Shown here: positions 1 through 9,993 of the stretch, piece by piece
How positions within the stretch are numbered: position 1 is the stretch's first letter
How the letters are laid out: every line of letters starts with the position of its first letter
DNA from: Planctomycetota bacterium
GTDB taxonomy: Bacteria > Planctomycetota > Phycisphaerae > WQYP01
DNA: 9,993 bases
Assembly: GCA_021799715.1 (NCBI GenBank)
Contig: JAJYZY010000081.1
Span: forward strand, 1-9,993
Direction of reading: 5' to 3'
Program-made: the position numbers and the translations under genes
The notes under the pieces: model-generated
The model's database searches: none
Seen by the model: only the letters and a program-made list of their open reading frames with translations
What the model was told of the DNA's origin: nothing

Positions 1-1169
1 CGGCCGTATTAATCGCTTGGTTGCTGTGGGCGTACAACATGGGCTTTGGACCGCAATTGTTCCCATTTGTAGGCCATCCCACACCTGTGGCAAGCATTAT
101 GGATGAGCTGAATCAGGCCATCGTGCCTGGTGCGAACGCCGCATCACCATTTGCCACTGCCGCATTTCCAATGTCGGCCATGGTCTATTTCCAATTTGTA
201 TTTGCCGCCATTACTTTGATTTTGATCGCCGGCTCACTGTTCGGTCGTATGAGCTTTGTGGCTTGGATGCTTTTTGTTCCGCTATGGCTGACGTTCTCGT
301 ATGCCGTAGGCGCATTTACTTTGTGGGGCGGCGGTTTCCTTGCTTTGAAGGGAGTTATCGACTACTCGGGCGGATACGTCATCCACTTGGCCGCCGGTGT
401 CAGCGCGTTTACCGCCGCCGCGATCATTGGCCCGCGTTTGAGCCAGGATCGCACCAACTTCAAGCCCAATAACATCCTGATGGTTCTGGCCGGTGCCGGT
501 TTGGTCTGGCTGGGATGGAATGGATTTAATGGTGGTGACCCGTATTCGGCTAATGCGGACGCCGCCGTCGCCGTTCTGAATACCAATGTGGCCACAGCCA
601 TGGCTCTGCTGGTCTGGATGTTCTGTGACTACGCCAAGTATGGCAAGCCATCGGTCCTTGGTGCCGTCAATGGCATGATTGCAGGACTTGTGGCAATCAC
701 GCCCTCGGCTGGTGTGTGCAACGGCTACGGAGCTTTGCTGGTTGGTCTGTGCGCGGGGACCATTCCATGGTTCACCATGAATGTCCTGAGCCAGAAGCTT
801 AGCGTATTTAAGAAAGTCGATGATTGTTTGGGAGTTATACATACCCATGGCTTTGCCGGTTTGACCGGCGGGTTATTGGTCGGTCTGGTCGCCACCCAGC
901 AAGGTGAAAGCGCCTTCGCATGTGTCAATACCAACGGTGGATTGTTCTACGGTGGCGGCATGCAGCAATTCTGGCTGCAAGCTGAAGGCGCGGGCTTCAT
1001 CATCGTGCTGAACGTTGTTGTTACCGCCGCGATCTGCTACCTGATCAAACTCTTCATTCCGCTGCGCATGTCTGATGAAATGCTGCGAATCGGCGATCAT
1101 GCGGTGCACGGTGAAGAGGCCTATGGCCTGGCTGAAGAAGATGATGCCGATGAATTGGTTCCGGCATAA
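1..1169 (+). CDS. amt: Ammonium transporter (Amt/Mep/Rh family), 5'-truncated by window edge
   Basis: An inner-membrane channel protein that moves ammonium/ammonia into the cell for nitrogen assimilation. The reading frame is open from base 3, so the N-terminus and the first membrane helix lie outside the window. The sequence shows many hydrophobic helices and Amt signatures: GVIDYSGGYVIHLAAG (conserved Asp and the first pore His, codon at 384), WLGWNGFNGG, LNTNVATA, VAITPSAG, and DDCLGVIHTHGFAG with the second pore His at codon 846. The twin-His pair is therefore intact. The cytoplasmic tail contains HGEEAYG, the usual end signature of Amt proteins, followed by an acidic stretch. A terminator lies 43 bases after the stop, so this is the last gene of its transcript. 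Amt genes are commonly next to glnK/glnB, but the upstream side is not visible here. Family assignment is secure; the specific subgroup is not determined. Confidence 0.95.
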   Translation, partial: AVLIAWLLWAYNMGFGPQLFPFVGHPTPVASIMDELNQAIVPGANAASPFATAAFPMSAMVYFQFVFAAITLILIAGSLFGRMSFVAWMLFVPLWLTFSYAVGAFTLWGGGFLALKGVIDYSGGYVIHLAAGVSAFTAAAIIGPRLSQDRTNFKPNNILMVLAGAGLVWLGWNGFNGGDPYSANADAAVAVLNTNVATAMALLVWMFCDYAKYGKPSVLGAVNGMIAGLVAITPSAGVCNGYGALLVGLCAGTIPWFTMNVLSQKLSVFKKVDDCLGVIHTHGFAGLTGGLLVGLVATQQGESAFACVNTNGGLFYGGGMQQFWLQAEGAGFIIVLNVVVTAAICYLIKLFIPLRMSDEMLRIGDHAVHGEEAYGLAEEDDADELVPA

Positions 1170-1211
1170 TCTCTCCGCCGCTTGAATTCTTTGTAAAATT
1201 GCCGTCAACAT

Positions 1212-1251
1212 GGGCGGTCAAGGCGTAAGCCTTGGCCGCCCTTTTTATTTT
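1212..1251 (+). terminator. Rho-independent terminator after amt
   Basis: A 13-bp stem pairs GGGCGGTCAAGGC (1212-1224) with the arm at 1229-1241, with a single T-G wobble and a GTAA tetraloop at 1225-1228. It is followed directly by TTTTTATTTT. This is a textbook intrinsic terminator for the ammonium transporter transcript. It also rules out the ATG at 1210 as a plausible start for the next gene, because that ATG would lie immediately 5' of the stem. Confidence 0.92.
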
Positions 1252-1281
1252 GGGGGCTTGTTCCGCCGGGCGACATTGCGA

Positions 1282-2457
1282 ATGTCCGCGAAAAGCCCCC
1301 GCTTGTCGGCTTATGCGGTAGAATTAGCTGCTGCTATGGCTGATCAGGTAATTGAATCATCCCCGCTGCACATCGCCCTGTGGCTGGATTCCCGACAACT
1401 TCCGCAGGAGGCGGGATTTATTTATTCACTGGCCGTAGCGGTTAAGGCCGAGGGGTGCCGCATCAGCGTTGTAGCACCCGCCGATGTGGATTTATCGTTT
1501 CTGCCGGATCTTGGAGCGCCGGTATTATTAAGACCCACGCCATCCGGGCCGGCATGGTTGGCCTCCATCCGCCGACCATCAATGGCCATGATTGACAAAC
1601 TCAAGCAGGCCAATGTGGATGTGGTGCTGCAATTTTCACCGGGCCATGGTTCTGATCCCATGCAATTGCGCCTGACAAAGGAAATTCCCGTCGTGCGCTG
1701 GATTTGGGATTCGGCCGATTTGGCCTCCGGCGGCTGCATATTGGATGCCGCCCACCTGATCGTCGCATCACAATACGCTCTGGAGCAATGCCGCGCCGAA
1801 TCGTCAAAAATATCCCTGATTCGTCCGGGTGTTTTAACTTATGATGCCATTGCATCAAAGACCGGCGTTGCCGATCGGCCCGCTTGTATGGTCTGCCTGG
1901 ATGTGATTTCTGATTATCAACTTTTTGCGGACCTGCTTGACGCATGCCGCCGATTAATGGATGAGCAAGCGGATTTTCTGCTTTTTCTTTGTGATGTTGG
2001 CAAAGATGCACACAGTATCTGGAAGCTTTCCAATGATCTGGGATTGCTCGATCGCATCAGCTTTATTCCGTATCGCTATGATCTGGACCCTCTGCTGGCC
2101 CAGGCGGATGTCTACATTCAACTTACCGCGTCGTCGCGGCACAACTATACCACGTTACGCGCCATGTCGCGGAAAATTCCGGTTATTGCCAATCCCGGTG
2201 TCAATGATGAGTTTTGTATTGATGGCCAGACCTGCCGCGTATTTCAACGTGGGCGGCCGGATATGCTTTCACAGGCCCTGGGGGACATGCTGGCCCATCC
2301 CGCGGCAACCCGTGAACTTGCATCGCGTGCCGCAATGAATGTGCAACGATATTATGGCATGAGCGATTCCGTGCTGCGGTTAATTGCGCTATGTCGGCGG
2401 GCATCCGGAATTCCGCTGGTTTTGCCCAATATAAACAGCCCGGTCACGCGGCAATAA
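1282..2457 (+). CDS. GT4-like glycosyltransferase family protein
   Basis: Likely a GT-B-fold glycosyltransferase that moves a sugar from an activated donor onto an envelope or secreted glycan; donor and acceptor cannot be told. The N-terminal half has the first Rossmann-type pattern (HIALWLDSRQLPQEAGFIYSL, then a strand RISVVAP), as in GT4 proteins. The linker IRPGVLTYD leads to a C-terminal Glycos_transf_1-like domain with LLFLCDVG, ISFIPYRYDLDPLLAQADVYI and KIPVIANPGVNDEFCIDGQTCRVF. The usual EX7E acidic pair is not conserved: the aligned stretch reads SSRHNYTTLRAM, with Ser and Arg where Glu is expected. The start is uncertain. ATG 1282 gives 391 residues, while ATG 1336 gives 373 and still includes the first beta strand; neither has a clear Shine-Dalgarno. 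An ATG at 1210 is rejected because it abuts the amt terminator. The gene stands alone, with 63 bases before the next gene. Confidence 0.8.
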   Translation: MSAKSPRLSAYAVELAAAMADQVIESSPLHIALWLDSRQLPQEAGFIYSLAVAVKAEGCRISVVAPADVDLSFLPDLGAPVLLRPTPSGPAWLASIRRPSMAMIDKLKQANVDVVLQFSPGHGSDPMQLRLTKEIPVVRWIWDSADLASGGCILDAAHLIVASQYALEQCRAESSKISLIRPGVLTYDAIASKTGVADRPACMVCLDVISDYQLFADLLDACRRLMDEQADFLLFLCDVGKDAHSIWKLSNDLGLLDRISFIPYRYDLDPLLAQADVYIQLTASSRHNYTTLRAMSRKIPVIANPGVNDEFCIDGQTCRVFQRGRPDMLSQALGDMLAHPAATRELASRAAMNVQRYYGMSDSVLRLIALCRRASGIPLVLPNINSPVTRQ

Positions 2458-2520
2458 AACCCGCGGCGGTGCGGATTGGTTGTGCCGCGATAAACGACCG
2501 CTCAGGAAGGATGTGAATGT

Positions 2521-3009
2521 ATGCTTATTCGTGATGCCACAAGCTTGGATCTACCCGCCATTGTGGCTATCTATAATTTCACCATTCCTTCACGGATGGT
2601 AACCGCGGATACGCAAAGTGTGTCCGTGGCCAGTCGGGAAAAGTGGTTTGCCGAGCATTCGCCGAATCGTCGGCCATTGTGGGTGGCGGAAGAAAATGGC
2701 GTGGTGGTGGGGTGGCTGAGCTTTTCGTCATTTTATGGCCGTCCGGCGTATGAGGCCACCTGTGAAGTAAGTGTCTACCTGGCACCAGACCGGCAACGCC
2801 GCGGCCTGGGCACGGTATTGCTGCGCCACGCCATGTCGCATGCGCCCCACATTCACGTCACCACACTTTTGGGTTTTATTTTTGGCCACAATCAGCCGAG
2901 CCTGCGGCTTTTTGAAAAACTCGGCTTCCAACGTTGGGGCCACCTTCCGCGCGTGGCCTTGCTGGATGGTGTCGAACGCGATTTGGTGATCGTCGGATGG
3001 CGCGTTTAA
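2521..3009 (+). CDS. GNAT family N-acetyltransferase (phosphinothricin acetyltransferase-like)
   Basis: A 162-residue single-domain acetyl-CoA-dependent N-acetyltransferase of the GNAT superfamily, closest in pattern to the phosphinothricin/methionine-sulfone acetyltransferase (PAT/MnaT) group. Seen in the protein: the N-terminal IRDATSLDLPAIVAIYN motif, VAEENGVVVGWLSF (beta 2-3), the CEVSVYLAPDRQRRGLGTVLL strand and acetyl-CoA pyrophosphate-binding loop (RQRRGLG, residues 91-97), and GHNQPSLRLFEKLGF (122-136) as the typical motif B. Length matches the PAT group (about 160-185). The start ATG at 2521 has a good ribosome binding site, AGGAAGG at 2504-2510. The substrate is not known: many such proteins act on amino acids or their analogues, and drug or herbicide resistance should not be assumed. 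It is the last host gene before the mobile element. Confidence 0.9.
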   Translation: MLIRDATSLDLPAIVAIYNFTIPSRMVTADTQSVSVASREKWFAEHSPNRRPLWVAEENGVVVGWLSFSSFYGRPAYEATCEVSVYLAPDRQRRGLGTVLLRHAMSHAPHIHVTTLLGFIFGHNQPSLRLFEKLGFQRWGHLPRVALLDGVERDLVIVGWRV

Positions 3010-3142: not shown

Positions 3143-3189
3143 AGCCGATGGCGAGAGTCGAACTCGCAACCTACGGTTTACAAAACCGC
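3143..3189 (-). tRNA. tRNA-Thr(UGU) 3' fragment; attL of the element
   Basis: Read on the - strand, the sequence gives an anticodon arm (GCGGT, loop TTTGTAA, ACCGT), a five-base variable loop AGGTT, a T arm (GCGAG, loop TTCGACT, CTCGC) and the 3' acceptor strand CATCGGC with discriminator T; CCA is not encoded. The anticodon is TGT (bases 3180-3182 on +), which reads Thr codons. The D arm and the 5' acceptor strand (expected GCCGATG) are absent upstream on the - strand, so this is not a functional tRNA gene. A 3' tRNA piece at the edge of an integrase-bearing element is the classic product of tyrosine-integrase insertion into a tRNA gene. The intact gene, rebuilt with element-borne 3' sequence, should be at the other junction. 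Confidence 0.85.
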
Positions 3190-3392
3190 ACGCGCAAAGC
3201 GTAAAACCCTTGAATTTGGCGGATATTATTGATGCCGGCAATCAGCGCGCTGAAAATGCGCTGAAAGTTGAAGCGGTTTCCGGTCAAGATTCCGCAATCA
3301 CGGACAAGGATTTACGACGCCTTGCCGGGCGTTGGAATACCCTGCCGGAGAATCTGAAGAAAGCCATACTGTTGATGGCGGGAATCCAATAG
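3150..3392 (+). pseudogene. Probable detached C-terminal tail of a tyrosine integrase
   Basis: A + strand frame reads antisense through the tRNA fragment as GESRTRNLRFTKP and continues without a stop to TAG at 3390-3392. It is open upstream only to 3093, with no convincing start; a TTG at 3210 could give a 60-residue protein but has no ribosome binding site. The end of the frame, RWNTLPENLKKAILLMAG, resembles the short C-terminal helix I recall after the catalytic domain in planctomycete tyrosine recombinases (a W-x-x-LPE-x-(I/L)-(K/R)-x-(A/G)-I-(L/V) pattern). I infer that this is the piece that follows the core site in the circular element's integrase gene, left behind at attL on integration. 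It could instead be a remnant of an earlier integrase, or an independent small protein. Confidence 0.5.
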
Positions 3393-3483
3393 AATGATAT
3401 TCGGGAAGGCCGCCTGATCCGCGGCCAAGTGGCTCCCGGCGTGGCTGACACCAAGGCGTTACGGCCTGATAAACTAGCCCAAG

Positions 3484-3523
3484 ATTAATCCCCAAACAAC
3501 AAAAACCCTACCCCACAAAACCC
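3484..3523 (-). other. G-free 40-base stretch; possible G-quadruplex on the - strand
   Basis: The + strand contains no G for 40 bases. It carries four C-runs at 3490-3493, 3506-3508, 3511-3514 and 3521-3523, so the - strand has four G-runs separated by loops of 6, 2 and 12 bases. The long loop makes a stable quadruplex uncertain. It lies in the 262-base non-coding stretch between the integrase tail remnant and the excisionase-like gene, where integrase/excisionase arm sites would be expected. Confidence 0.35.
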
Positions 3524-3549
3524 GCACCAGCATTGCTCAAAGTGCATTC

Positions 3550-3570
3550 CCTACCACAAAAATTGGTAGG
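3550..3570. repeat. Perfect inverted repeat, candidate operator near the xis-like gene
   Basis: CCTACCA (3550-3556) and TGGTAGG (3564-3570) are a perfect 7-bp inverted repeat separated by CAAAAAT. It lies about 85 bases upstream of the HTH gene and its right arm overlaps a possible -35 element (TTGGTA, 3563-3568). There is no T-run after it, so a repressor or excisionase binding site is more likely than a terminator. Confidence 0.5.
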
Positions 3571-3590
3571 ACTACGCGCGCACATATAGA
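3563..3590 (+). promoter_or_regulatory. Possible promoter of the early operon
   Basis: TTGGTA (3563-3568) and TATAGA (3585-3590) are spaced by 16 bases, a moderate match to a sigma-70-type promoter. It would give a leader of roughly 55-60 bases before the HTH gene at 3655. Overlap of the -35 with the 3550-3570 inverted repeat would suit repression. The assignment is tentative. Confidence 0.35.
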
Positions 3591-3605
3591 GGCTATACGG
3601 GGTTG

Positions 3606-3621
3606 GTCGGCATAAGCCGAC
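3606..3621. repeat. Perfect inverted repeat in the leader of the xis-like gene
   Basis: GTCGGC (3606-3611) and GCCGAC (3616-3621) flank ATAA, giving a perfect 6-bp palindrome or hairpin. A further GCCGAC copy follows at 3628-3633, so the GTCGGC/GCCGAC unit occurs three times in 28 bases. This could be a DNA-binding site for the element's HTH protein or an mRNA hairpin just 5' of its ribosome binding site. Confidence 0.45.
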
Positions 3622-3654
3622 ACCGGTGGCCGACATTACATCGGAGCCTATATC

Positions 3655-3846
3655 ATGGCGCGGATACCTGACCTGCCGACGCAATACCTCACTTATGCGG
3701 ATGTCGCGCGAACACTGAATGTGTCGCCCCGAATGGCGCGCAAATTGGCGGCAAGTCGCCAGATCAAGGCGGTGAAAATTGGCTCTTGCGTGCGAATAGC
3801 GCCGGAGGAACTCGCGCGTTTCGTGCGGGCGTTGCCAAATCGTTAA
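3655..3846 (+). CDS. Excisionase/AlpA-like helix-turn-helix protein
   Basis: A 63-residue protein that is almost entirely a MerR/Xis-type winged HTH of the HTH_17 (DNA-binding, excisionase family) type. LTYADVARTLNVSPRMARKLAASRQIKAVKIGSCVRIAPEELARFV-type order is visible: helix-turn-helix at residues 13-34, then the wing (IKAVKIGSCVRI) and a closing helix. The ribosome binding site CGGAG at 3642-3646 supports the ATG at 3655. Such proteins act as recombination directionality factors for tyrosine integrases or as activators of the early operon, as AlpA does in P4-type satellites. It is the first gene of the element's rightward gene block, 47 bases before the replication gene. Role as excisionase versus activator cannot be decided from sequence. 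Confidence 0.8.
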   Translation: MARIPDLPTQYLTYADVARTLNVSPRMARKLAASRQIKAVKIGSCVRIAPEELARFVRALPNR

Positions 3847-3852
3847 AAAAAT

Positions 3853-3879
3853 GCCCGGAGGCTTGCGGGCCGTCCGGGC
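3853..3879 (+). promoter_or_regulatory. Hairpin between the xis-like and rep genes
   Basis: GCCCGGA (3853-3859) and TCCGGGC (3873-3879) form a perfect 7-bp stem around a 13-base loop. No T-run follows. The 3' arm ends just before the GGAAAG that probably serves as the ribosome binding site of the gene at 3894, so it might adjust translation of the replication gene or stabilise a processed mRNA end. Confidence 0.4.
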
Positions 3880-3893
3880 GGAAAGCTTGAGTT

Positions 3894-5402
3894 ATGACAA
3901 CCATACCAGAAAACCAAACCGCACTGCAAGTGCCTTTGGCCACACGCTGGGCCGACGCGGAACGGCGATTACTCGGCAACGTTTGTTGCAAGCCGCCGGT
4001 CAACCCAAAACCGCGAGAGGATCACGTTTTGCGGCTATTGGATGCCAATGACCTGCTGAACGGTTACCACTGGGCAAACCCGCGGAACCAAGCAATTTTT
4101 GAAGCCGCGGTACGAATCGCGATGACCGGCGTTTACCCCGCGGCGCTGGCAATCGAATCCGAGTTGCGACGGATCAGCAACACGGAAGCCGCGGATTTTG
4201 CCGCCACACTTCCGATGGGATTTTTCTCTGATGCCGAACTTTTATTTTGGGCTGCTCAATGCGTGGAATTGGCGCGAGCGTGCGAGCTATATTCCAGCGT
4301 TGACCGGATTAAAGTGGCATTAGATTCCGGTCAAACCACCGCGGACGTTGCGCCTCTGGTGGCTGGTCTGGCTGAAACTGCGAAGCCAGCGGATCAGGAC
4401 AATGGCACCGTCAATGCTGGCGACTTGCTGGCCGACAATCCGCCGCTGTCCGAGCCAGTGATCGACGGCGCGTTGAGGCGCGGTGAGGTCGGACTACTTA
4501 TCGGCGCGCCGAAAACATGTAAAAGCTGGGCGGTTTTACACCTGCATTGCGCCATGGCAATCGGTGGGAGTTGGCTTGGCCATAAGTGCCGCAGAGGCCG
4601 TAGCCTACTGATTGATGGGGAGCTTTCGCCTTCAGTGATCGGGCATCGCCTGGCCAAGGTCGGGGAGCTTTATGGGTTAACAGACTTTTCATCCATCGAT
4701 ATTCTCTCATTAAGAGGTGACCCGCGGGATATTGATCGGCTGATGCCGATGCTGCAACGCTTTAAGCCCGGTGATTACGACCTGGCAAGTTTTGATCCCA
4801 TTTTCAAACTTTTGCCCGCCGATGCGGATGAAAATTCAAACGCTTATATCGCCGGATTTTTCCGCAAGATAATAGCGTTTACCGAGTCCGCGCAATTGGC
4901 TGCTGTTTGCATCCATCACGCGAGCAAGGGCTCGCAATCCGGCAAAAGTGTAAGTGATATGGGCGCGGGCGGTGGTGCACAATCACGTAGCGTGGATTGG
5001 CATGCGGCATTGAGAGAACACGCTGAACCGGGCTGCGTTTCGCTTCACACCATTTGCCGGAGCTTCGCGCCAACGCCGCCGAGCGTATGGCGGATGGATC
5101 CGCCGGAAATCGTCCCAATGCAGGAATCTGATCCCGAAGACCTGCGTACCGGCAGGCCGCGCAAGGCCACCGAGCCAGACACCGAAAAGCCGACGCCGCC
5201 AAACTGGCAGAGTGTCGCCGCGCTGGTCAACGGCGAAGCCCATGACCTGCCATGGTTTTCGGCAAGGCTGAACATGGGTGCAACAAAAACACGGGAGCTA
5301 TTGTCGCAAGCCGTGGCGATGGGCACTTTGTACCTGTGGCCGCGGGACAAAAAACGTGACTTGCCCGCCCGTTGGGCGCGTGAGCCGGAGAGGCTGGTTT
5401 AG
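3894..5402 (+). CDS. DnaB-N / RepA-like AAA ATPase (replicative helicase-type protein)
   Basis: A 502-residue protein likely to drive replication of the excised element. Residues about 18-105 look like a DnaB-type N-terminal helical domain (DAERRLLGNVCCKPP, then IFEAAVRIAMTG and ALAIESELRRI). Residues about 180-400 are an AAA_25/RepA-like RecA-fold ATPase: Walker A GAPKTCKSW (204-212, K210/S211), the strand RSLLIDGE (236-243), Walker B DLASFDPIF (296-304), the sensor-like CIHHASKG (339-346), and GAGGGAQSRSVDW (357-369) with a possible arginine finger. A proline-rich linker (about 405-437) leads to a C-terminal winged-helix-like segment ending in GTLYLWP. No primase (AEP or TOPRIM) domain is evident, so priming may rely on the host. 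The first ATG with a purine-rich site (GGAAAG about 3880) is used. A repeat-rich non-coding stretch follows directly, as expected if the origin lies beside the rep gene. Confidence 0.82.
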   Translation: MTTIPENQTALQVPLATRWADAERRLLGNVCCKPPVNPKPREDHVLRLLDANDLLNGYHWANPRNQAIFEAAVRIAMTGVYPAALAIESELRRISNTEAADFAATLPMGFFSDAELLFWAAQCVELARACELYSSVDRIKVALDSGQTTADVAPLVAGLAETAKPADQDNGTVNAGDLLADNPPLSEPVIDGALRRGEVGLLIGAPKTCKSWAVLHLHCAMAIGGSWLGHKCRRGRSLLIDGELSPSVIGHRLAKVGELYGLTDFSSIDILSLRGDPRDIDRLMPMLQRFKPGDYDLASFDPIFKLLPADADENSNAYIAGFFRKIIAFTESAQLAAVCIHHASKGSQSGKSVSDMGAGGGAQSRSVDWHAALREHAEPGCVSLHTICRSFAPTPPSVWRMDPPEIVPMQESDPEDLRTGRPRKATEPDTEKPTPPNWQSVAALVNGEAHDLPWFSARLNMGATKTRELLSQAVAMGTLYLWPRDKKRDLPARWAREPERLV

Positions 5403-5410
5403 GTCGTTGG

Positions 5411-5489
5411 GCACGCACGCACGCACCCCCTTATACCCCCTGTGTGCACGCGAACGTGCCACAGGGCTGGGGAAAAACGGGCGTGCACG
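5411..5489. repeat. GCAC repeats plus strong hairpin: candidate origin or packaging site
   Basis: The 108-base gap after the rep gene holds four tandem GCAC units (5411-5426). They are followed by a long hairpin, CCCTGTG (5438-5444), bulged T, GCACG (5446-5450), tetraloop CGAA, CGTGC (5455-5459) and CACAGGG (5460-5466). A second copy of GTGCACG from 5444-5450 is at 5483-5489. The repeats share the GCAC/GTGC core. The hairpin is not followed by a T-run, so a simple terminator is unlikely. Position next to a RepA-like gene suggests a replication origin; a cos/pac site for the terminase is the other attractive reading. Confidence 0.45.
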
Positions 5490-5510
5490 TGATGTGAATG
5501 GAGTTTTAAT

Positions 5511-5762
5511 ATGCTGATATTTATCCCGAATAAGAAAGACCCGCTGTACGGGGCATGGTGCGAAGTGGATTCGGTTCCGAAGGTGAATCCGTCCGCCGTC
5601 CGTGCTATTTACCGGGAGCGACGGAAAAACAAGATTGTGGATGGCGGCATATCCCCAGATAGGGCAAGTGAATACGCGGTAAGCGACGTGGCCTGGATGC
5701 TCGGTCTTACGGAAAAGACCGTGCGGGCATTCTGCCGAATTAAACAAGGTGTAAAATCATGA
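5511..5762 (+). CDS. Small HTH-like protein of unknown function
   Basis: An 83-residue basic protein not recognised as a named family. Its C-terminal half (YAVSDVAWMLGLTEKTVRAFCR, about residues 55-76) has the spacing of a helix-turn-helix, so DNA binding is plausible. The N-terminal part (MLIFIPNKKDPLYGAWCEVDSVP) is beta-like. The start at 5511 is supported by GGAG at 5500-5503 with seven bases between. It is the first gene of a compact block: its TGA overlaps the ATG of the next gene as ATGA. It could regulate the packaging operon. Existence as a gene is fairly sure; function is not. Confidence 0.65.
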   Translation: MLIFIPNKKDPLYGAWCEVDSVPKVNPSAVRAIYRERRKNKIVDGGISPDRASEYAVSDVAWMLGLTEKTVRAFCRIKQGVKS

Positions 5763-5896
5763 TTGACCCTGATGGCCAAAGATTGCAACGCGCTATTCAG
5801 CGACGCCGCCGGCAACATGCTTGGTCGAATCGGTTGCGGGCAATCATTCACCGGATCATGAATATGGCATCCATCCTTGGAGGAATTTTTGTATGA
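5759..5896 (+). CDS. 45-residue basic peptide gene between coupled genes
   Basis: A short open frame with ATG at 5759-5761 inside the ATGA that ends the preceding gene. Its own stop, TGA 5894-5896, overlaps the ATG of the following gene in a second ATGA. It fills the otherwise empty 130 bases exactly, which is the main evidence. The protein is strongly basic (IQRRRRQHAWSNRLR) followed by a hydrophobic end (MNMASILGGIFV), suggesting nucleic-acid or membrane contact. No family is recognised. Translational coupling from the upstream gene would explain the lack of a clear ribosome binding site. Confidence 0.55.
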   Translation: MIDPDGQRLQRAIQRRRRQHAWSNRLRAIIHRIMNMASILGGIFV

Positions 5897-6252
5897 CTTC
5901 CCGACCATTATTCGATGCACCGACTGCAGCGCCAACCCGTAGGGTTAAAACCGGCCGGGCAGTGCCGACGATTCCGGTTCCGCCAAAGCCGCCGGTTCAA
6001 TCGTGGACGATTACATTTGTCGCCGTGCCGGATTCAGTGCCGGGAATCATCCGCGTTCGCCGAGTTCTGAAAAACGCCATGCGGAGATACAAGCTACGTG
6101 CCCGAATCGTTGCAGAGCCTGGCACCATTGCAACGCTGGGCCATTCGACGGGCAATCAATCGTCCGATGGCCACCGAGGCCGGGAAACGGCGTTTAACCG
6201 AACTCGAAAGAATGAAGTTGCGGCCGGGACGACCGGCAGAATGGAGCGGTAA
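5893..6252 (+). CDS. Small phage-type protein of unknown function
   Basis: Starting at ATG 5893, with a strong GGAGG site at 5879-5883 and ATGA overlap with the gene before, this frame gives 119 residues. A more upstream start at 5821 is open but has no site and would overlap the 45-residue gene. After a Pro-rich basic leader (about residues 1-37) comes a compact conserved-looking core (WTITFVAVPDSVPGIIRVRR, then LLKNAMRRYKLRARIVAE-type order, about 38-76). I recall similar cores in small genes of phage-like islands, without known function. The last 43 residues (GHSTGNQSSDGHRG and onward) look like a non-native frame, while the overlapping +1 frame there looks protein-like. The real C-terminus may therefore differ by a frameshift, or the tail may simply be tolerated overlap. 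Confidence 0.6.
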   Translation: MTSRPLFDAPTAAPTRRVKTGRAVPTIPVPPKPPVQSWTITFVAVPDSVPGIIRVRRVLKNAMRRYKLRARIVAEPGTIATLGHSTGNQSSDGHRGRETAFNRTRKNEVAAGTTGRMER

Positions 6253-6265
6253 TCATGGTTCCTGA
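6098..6265 (+). CDS. Overlapping +1-frame gene or frameshifted C-terminus (55 residues)
   Basis: In the +1 frame relative to the previous gene, GTG 6098 opens a 55-residue frame. Its content (LQRWAIRRAINRPMATEAGK, then a basic helix with RRLTELERMKLRPGRPAEW) looks like a genuine helical basic protein, more so than the frame it overlaps. GGAG at 6083-6086 is 11 bases before the GTG, a slightly long spacing. The TGA at 6263-6265 overlaps the next gene by 11 bases, the same overlap seen between the terminase genes. Either this is a separate nested gene, or it is the true C-terminal half of the previous protein reached by a frameshift (programmed or mutational). Confidence 0.45.
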   Translation: MPESLQSLAPLQRWAIRRAINRPMATEAGKRRLTELERMKLRPGRPAEWSGNHGS

Positions 6266-6533
6266 TTCTCGCGAACGCCAAGGTCAACACTCCGCGACCG
6301 ATTGGGCGGAGGCTCTGACCCAAATCGAAGATGCCTTGGATATAACCGACCGCAAGGAGTGGTATGGCCTGTTGGTGGGGCACTTTTTGTATGTCGGCGG
6401 ATCGCCGACGGCGCGGCCTGATGGGGCAATGGACAGTACTTGGTTTGTGGGGCCATATCAAATCGAAATTCACGAAACGGCGAACGGCACTGTTTCATGG
6501 CATATTGCCACCCCGGATGAGGCATTGCGATGA
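6255..6533 (+). CDS. Hypothetical 92-residue acidic protein upstream of terminase
   Basis: A 92-residue protein with ATG at 6255 preceded by GGAG at 6243-6246 (8-base spacing). No family is recognised. Residues about 15-50 are helical and acidic (WAEALTQIEDALDI), and the second half is beta-like with aromatic residues (TWFVGPYQIEIHETANGTVSWHI). Its TGA overlaps the terminase ATG as ATGA, so the two are likely translated in a coupled way and this protein may take part in packaging. It is not similar in pattern to HNH nucleases, which often sit near terminases. Confidence 0.65.
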   Translation: MVPDSRERQGQHSATDWAEALTQIEDALDITDRKEWYGLLVGHFLYVGGSPTARPDGAMDSTWFVGPYQIEIHETANGTVSWHIATPDEALR

Positions 6534-7936
6534 ACCCAGTCACTTATTACCGCGCCTGGCGCGAGGCGTGCGATGACGCCGGGGCCATGCTTCGCCGCCG
6601 ACGCAAGGCCGTGGCCCTGTTGGACGCCAAGCCCACGGACGCCATCACGCCCGCTGACTATCAGGCGGCTTTCGTGGATGATCCGTCCCGCGTGGTTGTG
6701 GCAAGGGGCGGAAACTCCAGCGGAAAAACCGAAGCCGGGGCCATCAAGGTTGCCCGCATCCTGAAACACGCCCCGCCCTACCCGAACTGTCCATTCTGGA
6801 TCATCGGCCAGAGTTTTGAACTCGCCTGCGGTGTATGCTGGGCCGAAAAACTTACCAAGCACTTTGCCGCCCACGAGATCCGAAAAATCTCATGGCACGA
6901 TCAGGCCCGCAACTGGCCCGCCGCCGTCCGATTGCACAACGGCTGGGTAATTGAGTTCAAGTCCGCTGAACAAGGGCGACGGCTGTTTCAGGCCCGGAGC
7001 ATCGGCGGGGCGTGGCTTGATGAACAGTTTCCGCCTTCGATATTCATTGAAATATTCGCCAGAACACGTGACACGCACGGGCAGATTATCATGACCCAGA
7101 CGCCCATTGAATTTGACCCGTTCATGGAGGATAAGTTTAATTCCCATTCGCCCGGCTGGTCGTGGCACCAGTTCAGGACACGGGACAATAGCTTTGTTTC
7201 CTCTGACTGGATCGACGCCTTTGAGCAGGAGATACCGGAGCAGTTCAGGGCTACCCGCATGGCCGGGGAATTCGGGAGCTTCCAAGGCGCGGTTTATCCG
7301 CTTTTCGATCGCAACGTGCATGTTATTCCCGCCGTCAATCCGGCGACGCTGACCGACAAGCTGATTGTTCGCAGCGTAGACTTTGGCTTCAATAACCCGT
7401 TTGTGTGCCTCTGGCTGTACAAGACCGGCGACGGCGGCTGGGTTGTGTTTCAGGAATACTACAAACCGCGAACCCGCATTGCCGAACACGCCGCAACGAT
7501 CAAAGCTATGAGCGATGGCATGACCGTTCAACGCACCTGGGCGGATCCCGAAGATGCTGCGGCACGAAATGAACTCGGTGCCCTGGGCGTGCCGACCAGC
7601 ACAGCCCGTAAGGCCGTCCGGGCCGGCATTGAAGAAACCCAACGGCTGATGATGGTTATGGGTGATGGCAAGCCCCGCCTGCACATAACCACTAACTGTC
7701 CCAACACCATACGCGAGCTATCCTCTTACCGATGGGACAAAGGTACCGTTCGTACTGCCCCGGATATGCCGCTGAAAAAAGACGATCATACCTGCGACGC
7801 ATTGCGGTATGCCCTGTACTCCGAGAAACCTTACAGCGATGCCGGAACTGGTGCGCCGGAGATGGCAACAAACCCAAGCCGAATGAATATAATCATGCGG
7901 GGCGCGGGGCTTTGGAGCGGTCAAGATGACGAATGA
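6530..7936 (+). CDS. terL: Phage terminase large subunit (packaging ATPase-nuclease)
   Basis: The 468-residue protein contains both domains of a DNA-packaging motor. The N-terminal ATPase shows Walker A GGNSSGKT (residues 60-67), Walker B GGAWLDEQF (159-167, with D164 and catalytic E165), and the coupling motif IIMTQTP (186-192). The C-terminal RNase H-fold nuclease shows SVDFGFNNP (D284), TWADPED (D339) and KKDDHTCDALRYAL (D423), the three acidic positions expected. Length is normal and no frame break is seen, so the enzyme is probably active. It would translocate element DNA into a procapsid and cut it. No portal or capsid gene follows, so those parts must come from elsewhere. The start ATG overlaps the previous stop by ATGA. 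Its own end overlaps the small-subunit-like gene by 11 bases. Confidence 0.93.
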   Translation: MNPVTYYRAWREACDDAGAMLRRRRKAVALLDAKPTDAITPADYQAAFVDDPSRVVVARGGNSSGKTEAGAIKVARILKHAPPYPNCPFWIIGQSFELACGVCWAEKLTKHFAAHEIRKISWHDQARNWPAAVRLHNGWVIEFKSAEQGRRLFQARSIGGAWLDEQFPPSIFIEIFARTRDTHGQIIMTQTPIEFDPFMEDKFNSHSPGWSWHQFRTRDNSFVSSDWIDAFEQEIPEQFRATRMAGEFGSFQGAVYPLFDRNVHVIPAVNPATLTDKLIVRSVDFGFNNPFVCLWLYKTGDGGWVVFQEYYKPRTRIAEHAATIKAMSDGMTVQRTWADPEDAAARNELGALGVPTSTARKAVRAGIEETQRLMMVMGDGKPRLHITTNCPNTIRELSSYRWDKGTVRTAPDMPLKKDDHTCDALRYALYSEKPYSDAGTGAPEMATNPSRMNIIMRGAGLWSGQDDE

Positions 7937-8309
7937 ACAGATGGAAGGCCAGATAACGGAAAAACAACTGCCCGCGCTGGAGGCATTGTTTCAGGGAGCG
8001 ACGCTGGAAGTTGCGGCCAACGCCGCGGGTGTGACCGTCCAAACCGTGATGCGATGGAAGAAACTGCCCGCGTTTCAAAGGGAGTTACAGGCCCGTGCGG
8101 ACGCCATGCTTTCCGCGGCGCAGAGAATGGCCGCCGGGGAAGCGGTCAAATGCTTAGAAACGTGGCGTGAACTACGCGATGACCCCAAACAGCCCGGCAT
8201 CGTGCGTATTGCGGCGGCGGACAAAGTATTCGGCGTGGCCATGGCTCCGGCAATAGAGGATGTCCGCCGGATGACACGCAAGATGCTGAAGGCCATGAAG
8301 GCCCCGTAG
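7926..8309 (+). CDS. Terminase small subunit-like HTH protein
   Basis: A 127-residue protein. Residues about 13-60 (LPALEALFQGATLEVAANAA, then GVTVQTVMRWKKLPAFQREL) form a helix-turn-helix of the type found at the N-terminus of small terminase subunits (phBC6A51/Terminase_2-like), followed by a long helix with Ala/Arg-rich content and a C-terminal part ending in MTRKMLKAMKAP. Small subunits bind the cos/pac DNA and load it onto the large subunit. The gene overlaps the end of the large-subunit gene by 11 bases, so both are co-expressed. The order large-then-small is opposite to that of most tailed phages. It could alternatively be a transcriptional regulator of similar HTH type, but the overlap with terL favours packaging. 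Confidence 0.72.
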   Translation: MTNEQMEGQITEKQLPALEALFQGATLEVAANAAGVTVQTVMRWKKLPAFQRELQARADAMLSAAQRMAAGEAVKCLETWRELRDDPKQPGIVRIAAADKVFGVAMAPAIEDVRRMTRKMLKAMKAP

Positions 8310-8310
8310 G

Positions 8311-8327
8311 AATGTTAATAAATGTTA
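8311..8327 (+). repeat. Short direct repeat after the terminase genes
   Basis: AATGTTA occurs at 8311-8317 and again at 8321-8327, a spacing of 10 bases, or one helical turn. It begins directly after the stop codon of the small-subunit-like gene, in an AT-rich gap upstream of the toxin-antitoxin promoter. The spacing is compatible with a protein-binding site, but two copies are weak evidence. Confidence 0.3.
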
Positions 8328-8364
8328 GGTTTTTGAGGGTATCTGGGCCGATATTTACCATCGC

Positions 8365-8392
8365 TTGACATTTAAGCGTTAATAGCTATGAT
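8365..8392 (+). promoter_or_regulatory. Sigma-70-type promoter of the toxin-antitoxin pair
   Basis: TTGACA (8365-8370, a perfect -35 consensus) and TATGAT (8387-8392, one mismatch to TATAAT) are separated by 16 bases. This is the best promoter match in the window and stands in an AT-rich gap just upstream of the antitoxin gene. It probably also transcribes the integrase, which follows the toxin after only 20 bases. Confidence 0.8.
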
Positions 8393-8399
8393 AGTAATT
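8381..8399. promoter_or_regulatory. Palindromic operator over the -10 box
   Basis: AATAGCTATGATAGTAATT is an imperfect palindrome centred on base 8390: the inner CTAT-G-ATAG and the outer AAT/ATT arms match, with two mismatched pairs between. It covers the -10 element and the expected transcription start. Phd/YefM-type antitoxins repress their own promoter through such palindromes, so autoregulation by the downstream gene product is the natural reading. Confidence 0.55.
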
Positions 8400-8421
8400 G
8401 TGATTGTTTGGAGTATTAGGT

Positions 8422-8667
8422 ATGGATATTGGTATTGCCGAGTTTCGTAACAACATGGCCGACCCGATTAACCGGGCTATTTACGCCGGGGAGCGCGTCA
8501 TTCTAACCCGTGATGGCAAACCCACGGTGGCGCTGGTGAGCATGGACGATCTGAATCTGCTGGAGGAACTGGAAAACCGGGCTGATCTGAAAGCGGCATT
8601 GAAAGCCCGCAAGGAAAAAGGCGGAGTGCCGCTGGAGCGAATCAAAGCCCGTATGGCGGCGCGGTGA
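8422..8667 (+). CDS. Phd/YefM family antitoxin
   Basis: An 81-residue antitoxin that should neutralise the RelE-type toxin encoded next and repress the shared promoter. The N-terminal DNA-binding and dimerisation fold is typical: IGIAEFRNNMADPINRAIYA, then GERVILTRDGKPTVALVSMDDL (residues about 4-44). A helical, charged C-terminal part (ENRADLKAALKARKEKGG, about 51-68) would wrap the toxin. ATG 8422 is preferred over a TTG at 8404 because GGAG at 8410-8413 is eight bases upstream of it. The toxin gene begins three bases after the stop, as usual for such operons. In a mobile element the pair likely serves to keep the element in the population or to block competing phages. Confidence 0.9.
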   Translation: MDIGIAEFRNNMADPINRAIYAGERVILTRDGKPTVALVSMDDLNLLEELENRADLKAALKARKEKGGVPLERIKARMAAR

Positions 8668-8670
8668 GTT

Positions 8671-8937
8671 GTGGCCATATATCGGGTTATTCTCAAGCCG
8701 TCCGCCGATAAGGCGCTGCAAAAGCTTCCAGTGGATATGCAACGCCGGATTGTGGCCAAACTGGATGAACTGGCGGTGAATCCACGGCCGGCCAACGTGG
8801 TGAAACTGGCGGGCGATGATAATCTTTGGCGTATAAGAGCCGGCGATTATCGCGTGGTGTATGAGATTCACGACCGGGAAATAACGGTATGCGTTCTGGC
8901 CATTGCCCACCGACGCGACATTTACCGTGGATTGTAA
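8671..8937 (+). CDS. RelE/ParE superfamily toxin
   Basis: An 88-residue toxin of the RelE type, which cleaves ribosome-bound mRNA in well-studied members; ParE-type relatives instead inhibit gyrase. Seen: YRVILKPSADKALQKLPVDM (helical start), then KLAGDDNLWRIRAGDYRVVY (residues 45-64) and a closing strand and tail VCVLAIAHRRDIYRG. The R54/R56/R61 cluster, Y64 and H80-R81 are the positions expected of RelE-like ribonucleases. Start is GTG at 8671, three bases after the antitoxin stop. Only 20 bases separate it from the integrase start, so the three genes may share one transcript. Confidence 0.9.
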   Translation: MAIYRVILKPSADKALQKLPVDMQRRIVAKLDELAVNPRPANVVKLAGDDNLWRIRAGDYRVVYEIHDREITVCVLAIAHRRDIYRGL

Positions 8938-8957
8938 AAAGCAAAGGACGGTGACAC

Positions 8958-9993
8958 GTGGCCTCAACCTACAAACGTGGTAAATCTTGGATTGCGTCTT
9001 ACCTTGGATCAGATGGCCTCTGGCACGCCAAGTCCGCCGGCACGGACAAAGGCGAAGCCCTGCGGCTGGCGAATCATCTTGAAAATCAAGCCACGCTAAT
9101 CCGTGCAGGGATTGTTGACACCAAGCAACAGCGTTTTGCCGCCAATGCCAAACTGGGCATTGCGGATCATGTTTCCGCCTATAGGGCCGATCTACTGGGC
9201 CGCAACCGCACCGGGAAGCATGTCAACCTTGCCGTGAAGCGGGTTGAAACACTGCTGGAAAAGGCCGCGATTGAAAACTTGACGGATATATCAGGCTCCC
9301 GCATATCCACCGCGCTGGGGCAATTGCGTGATGAGGGCATGGCGGAGCGCACCATCGGCCACTACACGCGGTGCATCAAAGGTTTTACCCGCTGGGCGTG
9401 GCGTAACGGGCTGTGTGCGGATGATCCGTTAGCCATCCTGGCGGTCAAGGTGAACGTGCCGTTGGCGGAGCGTAAGCACGTCCGGCGTCCATTTTCCGCC
9501 GAAGAACTCCGGCAATTGCTGGCCTATACCAAGGCCGCGCCAACACGCTGGAACATGACGGGGATAGACCGGGCAATGCTTTATTCCGTGGCTTGTGGCA
9601 CGGGATTCCGGGCCAATGAATTGCGAAGTCTGACGGTGAAATCTTTCCGCTTGGATGAGCCGGCCATTGCGCTATCCGGCACCGCCGCCAAAAACGGCAA
9701 AGATGTTCTGCAACCCATACCGGCGGAACTGGCCAATGAACTCAAGCCATGGCTTAAAGGCCGCAAGGCAGGTCCGGCATTCAGCATGTGCAATAAAGGC
9801 AACGTGGTGCGGATGTTGCGTGATGACATGGCTTCTGCCCGGATCGCATGGTTCAAGTCCATGGAACCCGACCTGCAACGCCGCAACGCCCGGCAAGGTG
9901 ATTTTCTCCGCCCAATTGATGCGGATGGCCGGTATGCCGATTTTCACGCCTTGCGGGCAACGTATATCACTATGCTGGCGAGAGCCAACGTAC
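8958..9993 (+). CDS. int: Tyrosine-type site-specific integrase, 3' end beyond window
   Basis: A frame of 345 complete codons, open to the right edge, encoding the recombinase that should insert and (with the xis-like protein) excise this element. The start GTG 8958 has AAAGGA at 8943-8948. Residues 1-45 (YKRGKSWIASYLGSDGLWHA) form an arm-site-binding beta domain; about 65-165 is the core-binding SAM-like domain (MAERTIGHYTRCIKGFTRWAW); about 175 onward is the catalytic domain. Visible catalytic residues are Arg218 in ACGTGFRANELRSL, Lys245 in TAAKNGKD and the HxxR box DFHALRATY (His330, Arg333). The second His/Trp and the nucleophilic Tyr lie outside the window. The gene points to the right end of the element, where attR with the intact tRNA-Thr is expected. 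It may continue into the att core, in which case its last residues differ between integrated and circular forms. Confidence 0.95.
   Translation, partial: MASTYKRGKSWIASYLGSDGLWHAKSAGTDKGEALRLANHLENQATLIRAGIVDTKQQRFAANAKLGIADHVSAYRADLLGRNRTGKHVNLAVKRVETLLEKAAIENLTDISGSRISTALGQLRDEGMAERTIGHYTRCIKGFTRWAWRNGLCADDPLAILAVKVNVPLAERKHVRRPFSAEELRQLLAYTKAAPTRWNMTGIDRAMLYSVACGTGFRANELRSLTVKSFRLDEPAIALSGTAAKNGKDVLQPIPAELANELKPWLKGRKAGPAFSMCNKGNVVRMLRDDMASARIAWFKSMEPDLQRRNARQGDFLRPIDADGRYADFHALRATYITMLARANV

Follow-up and report, generated by a model that had tools for sequence, protein, structure and literature searches.

A stretch of 9,993 nucleotides from a Planctomycetota bacterium (contig JAJYZY010000081.1 of assembly GCA_021799715.1; hereafter the window) carries a mobile element that starts at position 3143, is still open at the window end (9993) and encodes both subunits of a phage terminase but no recognised virion genes. 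We consider it likely that this element is a tRNA-integrated satellite resembling the phage-inducible chromosomal islands (PICIs), and that some members of its family took the large and small terminase subunits (TerL and TerS) from a phage and package themselves into the procapsid of a helper. As read from the sequence, the argument draws on the gene plan, the lack of recognised virion genes, the tRNA and attachment (att) boundaries of relatives, the selection acting on TerL and the exchange of modules among siblings.

The original prediction had described the TerL of this element as intact, and this holds. The gene (6530..7936, + strand) is a single open frame that matches Terminase_6N (3e-11) and a PHROG family (2.5e-32), and its family profile matches the solved terminases 5oe8 and 5oea at about 1e-22. 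The protein carries the ATPase and nuclease motifs, with GGNSSGKT (Walker A) at residue 60, GGAWLDEQ at residue 159, and the acidic motifs of the nuclease at 283, 338 and 418. The end of terL is overlapped by a gene for a TerS-like small subunit (7926..8309, +; phrog_7344, 5.6e-7; phrog_2538, 5e-6). The ratio of nonsynonymous to synonymous substitution rates (dN/dS, Nei-Gojobori) of terL, a check named by the original prediction, was 0.11-0.17 against the window copy (0.158 for locus L019, 0.165 for L020, 0.108 for L022 and 0.143 for L165, the relatives described below) and 0.039-0.203 among the other six pairs, some of them compared on short stretches; for terS, it was 0.25-0.34. The TerL values lie well below 1, and the gene is under selection for its function.

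Around this cassette, the element shares its plan with PICI-type satellites, having modules for integration, regulation, replication and packaging, and departs from it in one respect, its own motor. An HTH_17 regulator similar to excisionases and AlpA (3655..3846, +; Pfam HTH_17, 3.1e-10; phrog_66, excisionase, 1.7e-6), whose counterpart in L022 additionally passes the AlpA cut-off, precedes a RepA/DnaB-like replicative helicase-primase (AAA_25; 3894..5402, +; Pfam, 3.9e-20; phrog_2597, DNA primase, 1e-33), and the element thereby has the AlpA/Stl-type regulator and the replication module of its own that mark PICIs. Downstream of the terminase genes lie a Phd/YefM antitoxin (8404..8667, +; Pfam, 3.5e-12), a ParE-type toxin (8671..8937, +; Pfam, 1.5e-14) and a tyrosine integrase truncated by the end of the window (8958..9993, +; Pfam Phage_integrase, 8.4e-8). 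Scans with Pfam (10 element proteins at E up to 1 and the integrase at E up to 0.01) and PHROGs (eight proteins at E up to 1) thus confirmed the gene content given by the original prediction, namely excisionase-like, RepA-like, TerL, TerS, toxin-antitoxin and integrase genes without virion genes. Among the scanned proteins, none matched a portal, protease, capsid, tail or lysis family, and none matched a relaxase or conjugation family. In the part of the element that lies within the window, up to 9993, no structural or lysis gene was recognised, as in classical PICIs; the portal, protease, capsid and connectors of capsid-forming PICIs (cfPICIs) were found neither here nor in the relatives scanned. 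The core genes of satellite P4 are psu, sid, delta and alpha; none of these names was among the Pfam and PHROG matches shown, no search dedicated to them having been made.

The left end is marked by attL (3143..3188, - strand), a fragment of a tRNA-Thr(TGT) gene. Its 46 nt are 91% identical both to the complete tRNA-Thr(TGT) on contig G002:C123 and to the tRNA-Thr(TGT) of genome G094, which adjoins an integrase (L197); no intact tRNA was called in the window by ARAGORN. The integrase frame is open at 9993, and attR, with the right end of the element, lies outside the window. Because the integrases of relatives run into tRNA genes, the element is expected to end soon after this point. Only attL is visible in the window, and att repeats were found in the relatives L201, L194, L128 and L020/L022; the combination of an int-family recombinase with att repeats expected of PICIs is present, the repeats being those seen in relatives. 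On the G002 contig with the intact gene, locus L129 (4353-5814) repeats the tRNA-Thr(TGT) region imperfectly (90% over 78 columns). The two copies lie about 1.3 kb apart and enclose an open reading frame (ORF) that was judged by eye to be toxin-like; the imperfect copy is likely a remnant of an older insertion at the kind of site used by the window element.

Scanning genome contigs with a TerL alignment yielded 16 loci, and three of the four best came from two metagenome-assembled genomes (MAGs), G001 and G002. With G036, three related Planctomycetota MAGs encode a TerL 85-97% identical to that of the window, and the same TerL is thus found in elements of four genomes: the window, L019 (G001), L022/L020 (G002) and, in part, L165 (G036). 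The original prediction had named a one-off, decaying deletion derivative as the outcome that would speak against it; we looked for such a case and did not find it. In G001, a contig of 7471 bases starts inside the element (L019) and reads OrfA, a 106-aa ORF, TerL, TerS, HTH and Int, followed by tRNA-Leu(TAA) (4533-4617) and then NYN_YacP, radical SAM and DUF4159 genes. In G002, one contig (L022) passes from chromosomal genes into the element at 5963, where an att repeat lies, continues with Rep, OrfA and OrfB, and breaks off in the first part of TerL, and a second contig (L020) starts inside TerL and continues with TerS, HTH, Int, tRNA-Thr(CGT) (3289-3361) and TPR and CysS genes. The att repeat of this pair is 60 nt long, 85% identical and lies at L022 5963-6022; if the two contigs are halves of one copy, the element measures about 7.6 kb. 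L165, found in a class-wide search, has TerL at its contig end (93% over the first 103 residues), OrfA, HTH_17 and a different replication gene with a DnaB N-terminal domain. Its left end, next to a transporter gene, looks tRNA-like by eye and is not called as a tRNA by ARAGORN. No head genes were found among the scanned ORFs of L019, L165 or either half of the G002 element; ORFs in relatives were picked greedily by length, so that some small true ORFs were displaced by antisense frames, and all frames were listed for chosen stretches. A portal or capsid block before attR, which the original prediction had considered damaging, was looked for in relatives and not found: in L019 and L020, the integrase leads into a tRNA gene and then into chromosomal genes, and in the sibling L201 the integrase also runs into a tRNA gene, though the gene beyond it has no Pfam match. 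All flank genes that do match Pfam are chromosomal in kind (NYN_YacP, radical SAM, DUF4159, TPR, CysS, Lon_C and SSF).

The modules of these elements differ in how well they are conserved. TerS adjoins TerL in all three elements in which that side is visible and is 88-94% identical between the window, L019 and L020, and OrfB, a 92-aa ORF directly 5' of terL (6255..6533, +; no significant family), is 91% identical in L022. The integrases of the window, L019 and L020 are 33-34% identical, as against 85-93% for their TerL; the replication protein of the window is 47% identical to that of L022 (46-48% across L022, L190 and L194) and of another type in L165. The TerL-TerS pair is kept while Int and Rep differ, which shows that the cassette moves from one element backbone to another.

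OrfA, a 119-aa protein encoded between rep and orfB (5893..6252, +), is the signature ORF of a wider element family. It has no Pfam or PHROG match and is recognised by an RPLFDxP N-terminus and a W...P..xRxRRLLK..xR motif (alignment A3); its AlphaFold model is poor, with a mean predicted local distance difference test score of 62 and one helix. OrfA matches, some of them weak, occur in 16 of the 298 class genomes at E<=0.001, and at the same threshold 14 proteins, one of them the window's own, were found among 5577 candidates from a set of 5.8 billion proteins. OrfA genes elsewhere mark the position of additional integrase-rep elements. In L201 (G001:C524), tRNA-Arg(CCT) and a 45-nt repeat at 91% enclose about 5.9 kb; this element encodes an integrase 81% identical over 345 aa to that of the window and a TerS-like protein (PHROG, 7e-8), with no TerL match. 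L189, also in G001, has tRNA-Arg(TCT) and a TerS-like gene (PHROG, 2e-6), with neither a repeat nor a TerL match found. As the sole TerL of G001 is that of L019, elements with both subunits and elements with a TerS-like gene only co-exist in one MAG. L194 has tRNA-Lys and a perfect 56-nt repeat spanning 7.4 kb, and between its OrfA and Int (7867-8241) lies a protein with PHROG matches to a nucleotide pyrophosphohydrolase and to families of unknown function. Among those ORFs of L194, L192 and L188 that were scanned, none matched a terminase. L128 (G002:C152, 3213-13427), an element of about 10 kb with tRNA-Leu(CAA), an 85-nt repeat at 94% and a related integrase and rep, has no OrfA match and, among the ORFs scanned, no terminase match. 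The recurrence at tRNA genes without head genes that the original prediction had foreseen was thus observed; its constant size of 7-8 kb was not, the G002 copy measuring about 7.6 kb and L201 5.9 kb. Likewise, integration at tRNA genes stood, with the qualification that the site is not one tRNA and that TerL plus TerS is one option within a wider family.

At the terS end, a conserved junction (8290..8392, +) ends in a promoter-like TTGACA-16-TATGAT (8365-8392). Its block, CCATGAAGGCCCCGTAGG, recurs in the window, L019, L020 and L201 and, as a shorter match, in L189. In the window it is part of coding sequence, and in L201 it starts within the stop codon that closes the TerS-like gene. A promoter scan gave no more sites than shuffled sequences (4 versus 4.1), and between L020 and L201 the similarity continues into the next gene. 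The block could be a promoter/operator, an exchange point or a packaging site. Given its promoter-like end and the similarity running into the next gene, a pac or cos site is not favoured, a shared promoter/operator or an exchange point being as likely.

The nearest phage, L021, has a TerL 55% identical to that of the window. On the 3' side of its TerL lie a portal (PF06074 Portal_Mu; phrog_113, 1e-28) and a Mu F-like minor head protein (4e-20); then come a scaffold-like (1e-4) and a major head protein (3e-24). Its putative TerS precedes TerL, the reverse of the order in the satellite element. A TerL tree of 43 rows places the window, L019, L020 and two proteins labelled as satellite by similarity alone (P0001 and P0002) in one group (100/100); its neighbours are P0003, with weak support (82/48), and the L021 group (99/97). 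A search for Portal_Mu in 59 genomes or records gave a match in 8. For 93 of 108 related loci, the ORF of 180 aa or more that lies nearest behind TerL was scanned, and in 39 it matched the portal family phrog_12; this counts the commonest portal family alone, overlaps between families being left out. The other 15 loci were omitted because they had little or no sequence after TerL or no TerL ORF (four), and two of them, L082 and L093, had room but no ORF of 180 aa within 3 kb. TerL is thus often followed by a portal in distant relatives and not in close ones.

These results suggest a route by which the element might be transferred. A helper phage would induce it, the integrase and the HTH protein would excise it and RepA would replicate it. 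TerS would then recognise the element DNA, and the element's own TerL, not the helper's, would dock on the helper portal, fill the helper procapsid and cut the DNA. The cassette was probably acquired from a planctomycete phage of the Mu-portal type, and siblings with only a TerS-like gene would redirect the TerL of the helper, as classical satellites do. We infer the steps of induction, docking, packaging and transfer, loading through the helper's portal, as the original prediction had proposed, being the most economical mechanism.

Several observations weigh against this scheme. TerS was assigned from weak similarity to small HTH proteins, and the putative TerS of L021 has no PHROG match and matches that of the window weakly (E 1e-3). 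The DNA of the element matched none of 50,697 phage records; its TerL matched 1418 of them, all below 60% identity, and 80 TerL relatives retained out of 323 in viral_contigs reached at most 42%, except for one 57-residue stretch at 54%, while Int and RepA had no relative there. A portal search confined to the Mu type found none in G001, G002 or G036, and Terminase_6N genes were limited to the element's own in G001 and G002 and absent from G036; thus, no resident helper of that type was seen. The satellite TerL occurs in only 3 of the 28 genomes in the order of G002, where phage L021 was found in one (G003), and in a phylum sample of 392 genomes, which overlaps the class sample of 298, TerL had two matches at E 1e-40, of which one was G002 and the other reached 34% identity. 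The 347-nt overlap of L022 and L020 differs at eight bases, so the contigs are possibly halves of two copies, and an empty site of the G002 element was not found, the right-flank orthologue stretches in five other genomes lacking the tRNA and the left-flank genes. L019 and L165 are cut by contig ends, MAG contigs may be misbinned, and Pfam gave no match for the flank proteins at L022:4392-5711 and L201:7321-9000 or for the gene beyond the L201 tRNA. As a separate observation, a prophage-like contig of G088, a genome that also has OrfA elements, carries a Terminase_6N gene followed by a Phage_portal gene (L209, G088:C293; 6e-17); it represents a possible kind of helper and is not linked to the element.

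Terminase genes under selection in the absence of a capsid would also suit a satellite whose TerL and TerS act mainly against the helper, by sitting on its portal, poisoning the helper motor or cleaving helper DNA, with the satellite's own DNA packaged otherwise. No capsid-size gene was recognised in the window by the Pfam and PHROG scans and none of eight window proteins matched a defence function in PADLOC at E<=0.01, which leaves room for such a role. A decoy would not need the full set, however, and here TerS and TerL are kept together with the ATPase and nuclease motifs intact, while siblings with a TerS-like gene alone fit packaging redirection; we therefore regard a mainly antagonistic function as rather unlikely. 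It is also unlikely that we are dealing with an ordinary integrative island, either plasmid-like or spread by conjugation, which has acquired terminase genes and makes no use of phage transfer. The Phd/ParE pair suits stabilisation of such an island and the siblings L194, L128, L192 and L188 could be plain islands, but the terminase is under selection, an AlpA/excisionase-like regulator is present, and none of the window proteins scanned matched a relaxase or conjugation family.

A decaying remnant of a temperate phage, stripped of head and tail genes, would account for a TerL that groups beside phages with a portal after TerL. Such an origin is very unlikely, because the element recurs in several genomes and at several tRNA sites, its frames are open, its TerL dN/dS is well below 1, and the cassette is joined to different rep and int modules; the gene order also differs, with TerS after TerL here and before it in L021. 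The decaying genes and lone copy that characterise a defective prophage were accordingly not seen. Finally, the attR site lies outside the window and the 83-, 119- and 92-aa ORFs have no family, which could hide capsid genes to the right of the window or beyond recognition. As the integrase frame runs into the tRNA gene itself in L019, L020 and L201, and the unassigned ORFs look too small for a portal and capsid set, we consider this highly improbable.

A satellite with its own terminase and a borrowed head can be placed among known satellites, the comparison being with the parts of the published accounts available to us. Like PICIs and Staphylococcus aureus pathogenicity islands (SaPIs), the element is compact, with an integrase at its end, an AlpA-like/excisionase-like regulator, its own replication protein, a packaging gene and no virion genes. 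Among SaPIs, some rely on cos sites and the terminase of the helper, whereas others have a TerS of their own (PMC10690885); the siblings L201 and L189 match the latter. PICIs redirect helper packaging through TerS, Rpp or cos and use the helper's TerL; in contrast, the window element encodes TerL as well as TerS, in the order TerL-TerS on the int side, resides in Planctomycetota and would depend on a putative helper for its induction. Both terminase subunits are also encoded by cfPICIs together with capsid parts (PMC10690885), but these add a portal, protease, capsid and connectors, none of which was recognised here. The Flayer and Mulch satellites of Streptomyces phages share the small and large terminase subunits; they also encode a major capsid protein and a portal, and key replication genes are missing from them (PMC10690885), whereas the window element has a replication gene and no capsid. 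The satellite-like Pseudomonas prophage AH14b resembles it in its integrase, AlpA-like regulator, own primase and lack of structural genes; its authors report finding no terminase gene, packaging being left to the helper AH14a (PMC4936722). PICMI, the phage-inducible chromosomal minimalist island of Vibrionaceae, is likewise a very small satellite without capsid remodelling genes, but integrates next to fis, and for PICMI115 the text consulted reports no terS or other packaging-redirecting gene (PMC10803314), whereas the window element has TerS and TerL and tRNA target genes. Virion-encapsidated integrative mobile elements (VEIMEs) and tycheposons are integrated elements of marine bacteria also proposed as satellites (PMC10803314, PMC11389934), and terminase genes are taken to suggest mobilisation by phages (PMC11389934). 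In the portions of the literature covered, we found no satellite described as having TerL and TerS together while lacking head genes, the terminase content of VEIMEs and tycheposons not being part of the comparison, and no paper on phage satellites in Planctomycetota.

As far as these accounts go, described satellites borrow the helper's motor (SaPI, P4, AH14b) or make their own head with terminase (cfPICI, Flayer/Mulch). A satellite with a motor but no head fills the gap between them and raises the question of whether a satellite TerL can dock on a helper portal. We lean slightly toward seeing here a third, "motor-bearing" packaging strategy, in which the satellite brings a complete terminase, the helper supplies only a procapsid with portal and a tail, and an exchangeable cassette frees the element from the motor specificity of one helper, within a mosaic family that also has TerS-only and terminase-less siblings. 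Because one bacterial order holds siblings of three kinds, those with TerS and TerL, those with just a TerS-like gene and those in which no terminase was found, gain and loss of the cassette can be followed and tested. The findings also extend candidate satellites to Planctomycetota, the phylum suggested by the original prediction and borne out by the flanking DNA, which matches a planctomycete MAG, and by TerL relatives in Planctomycetota MAGs.

The remaining features of the element are small. A 60-aa ORF at the left end (3210..3392, +) has no significant family and falls within a stretch (3174-3452) with 76% DNA identity to the left end of the G001:C524 element, and an 83-aa ORF (5511..5762, +) is unassigned in function, its Pfam and PHROG matches being all below any cut-off. 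To the left of the element, bases 3-3009 are chromosomal in kind, with ammonium transporter, glycosyltransferase and GNAT acetyltransferase genes, and share 76-79% DNA identity with G002:C133 (planctomycete MAG LSA5.bin36).

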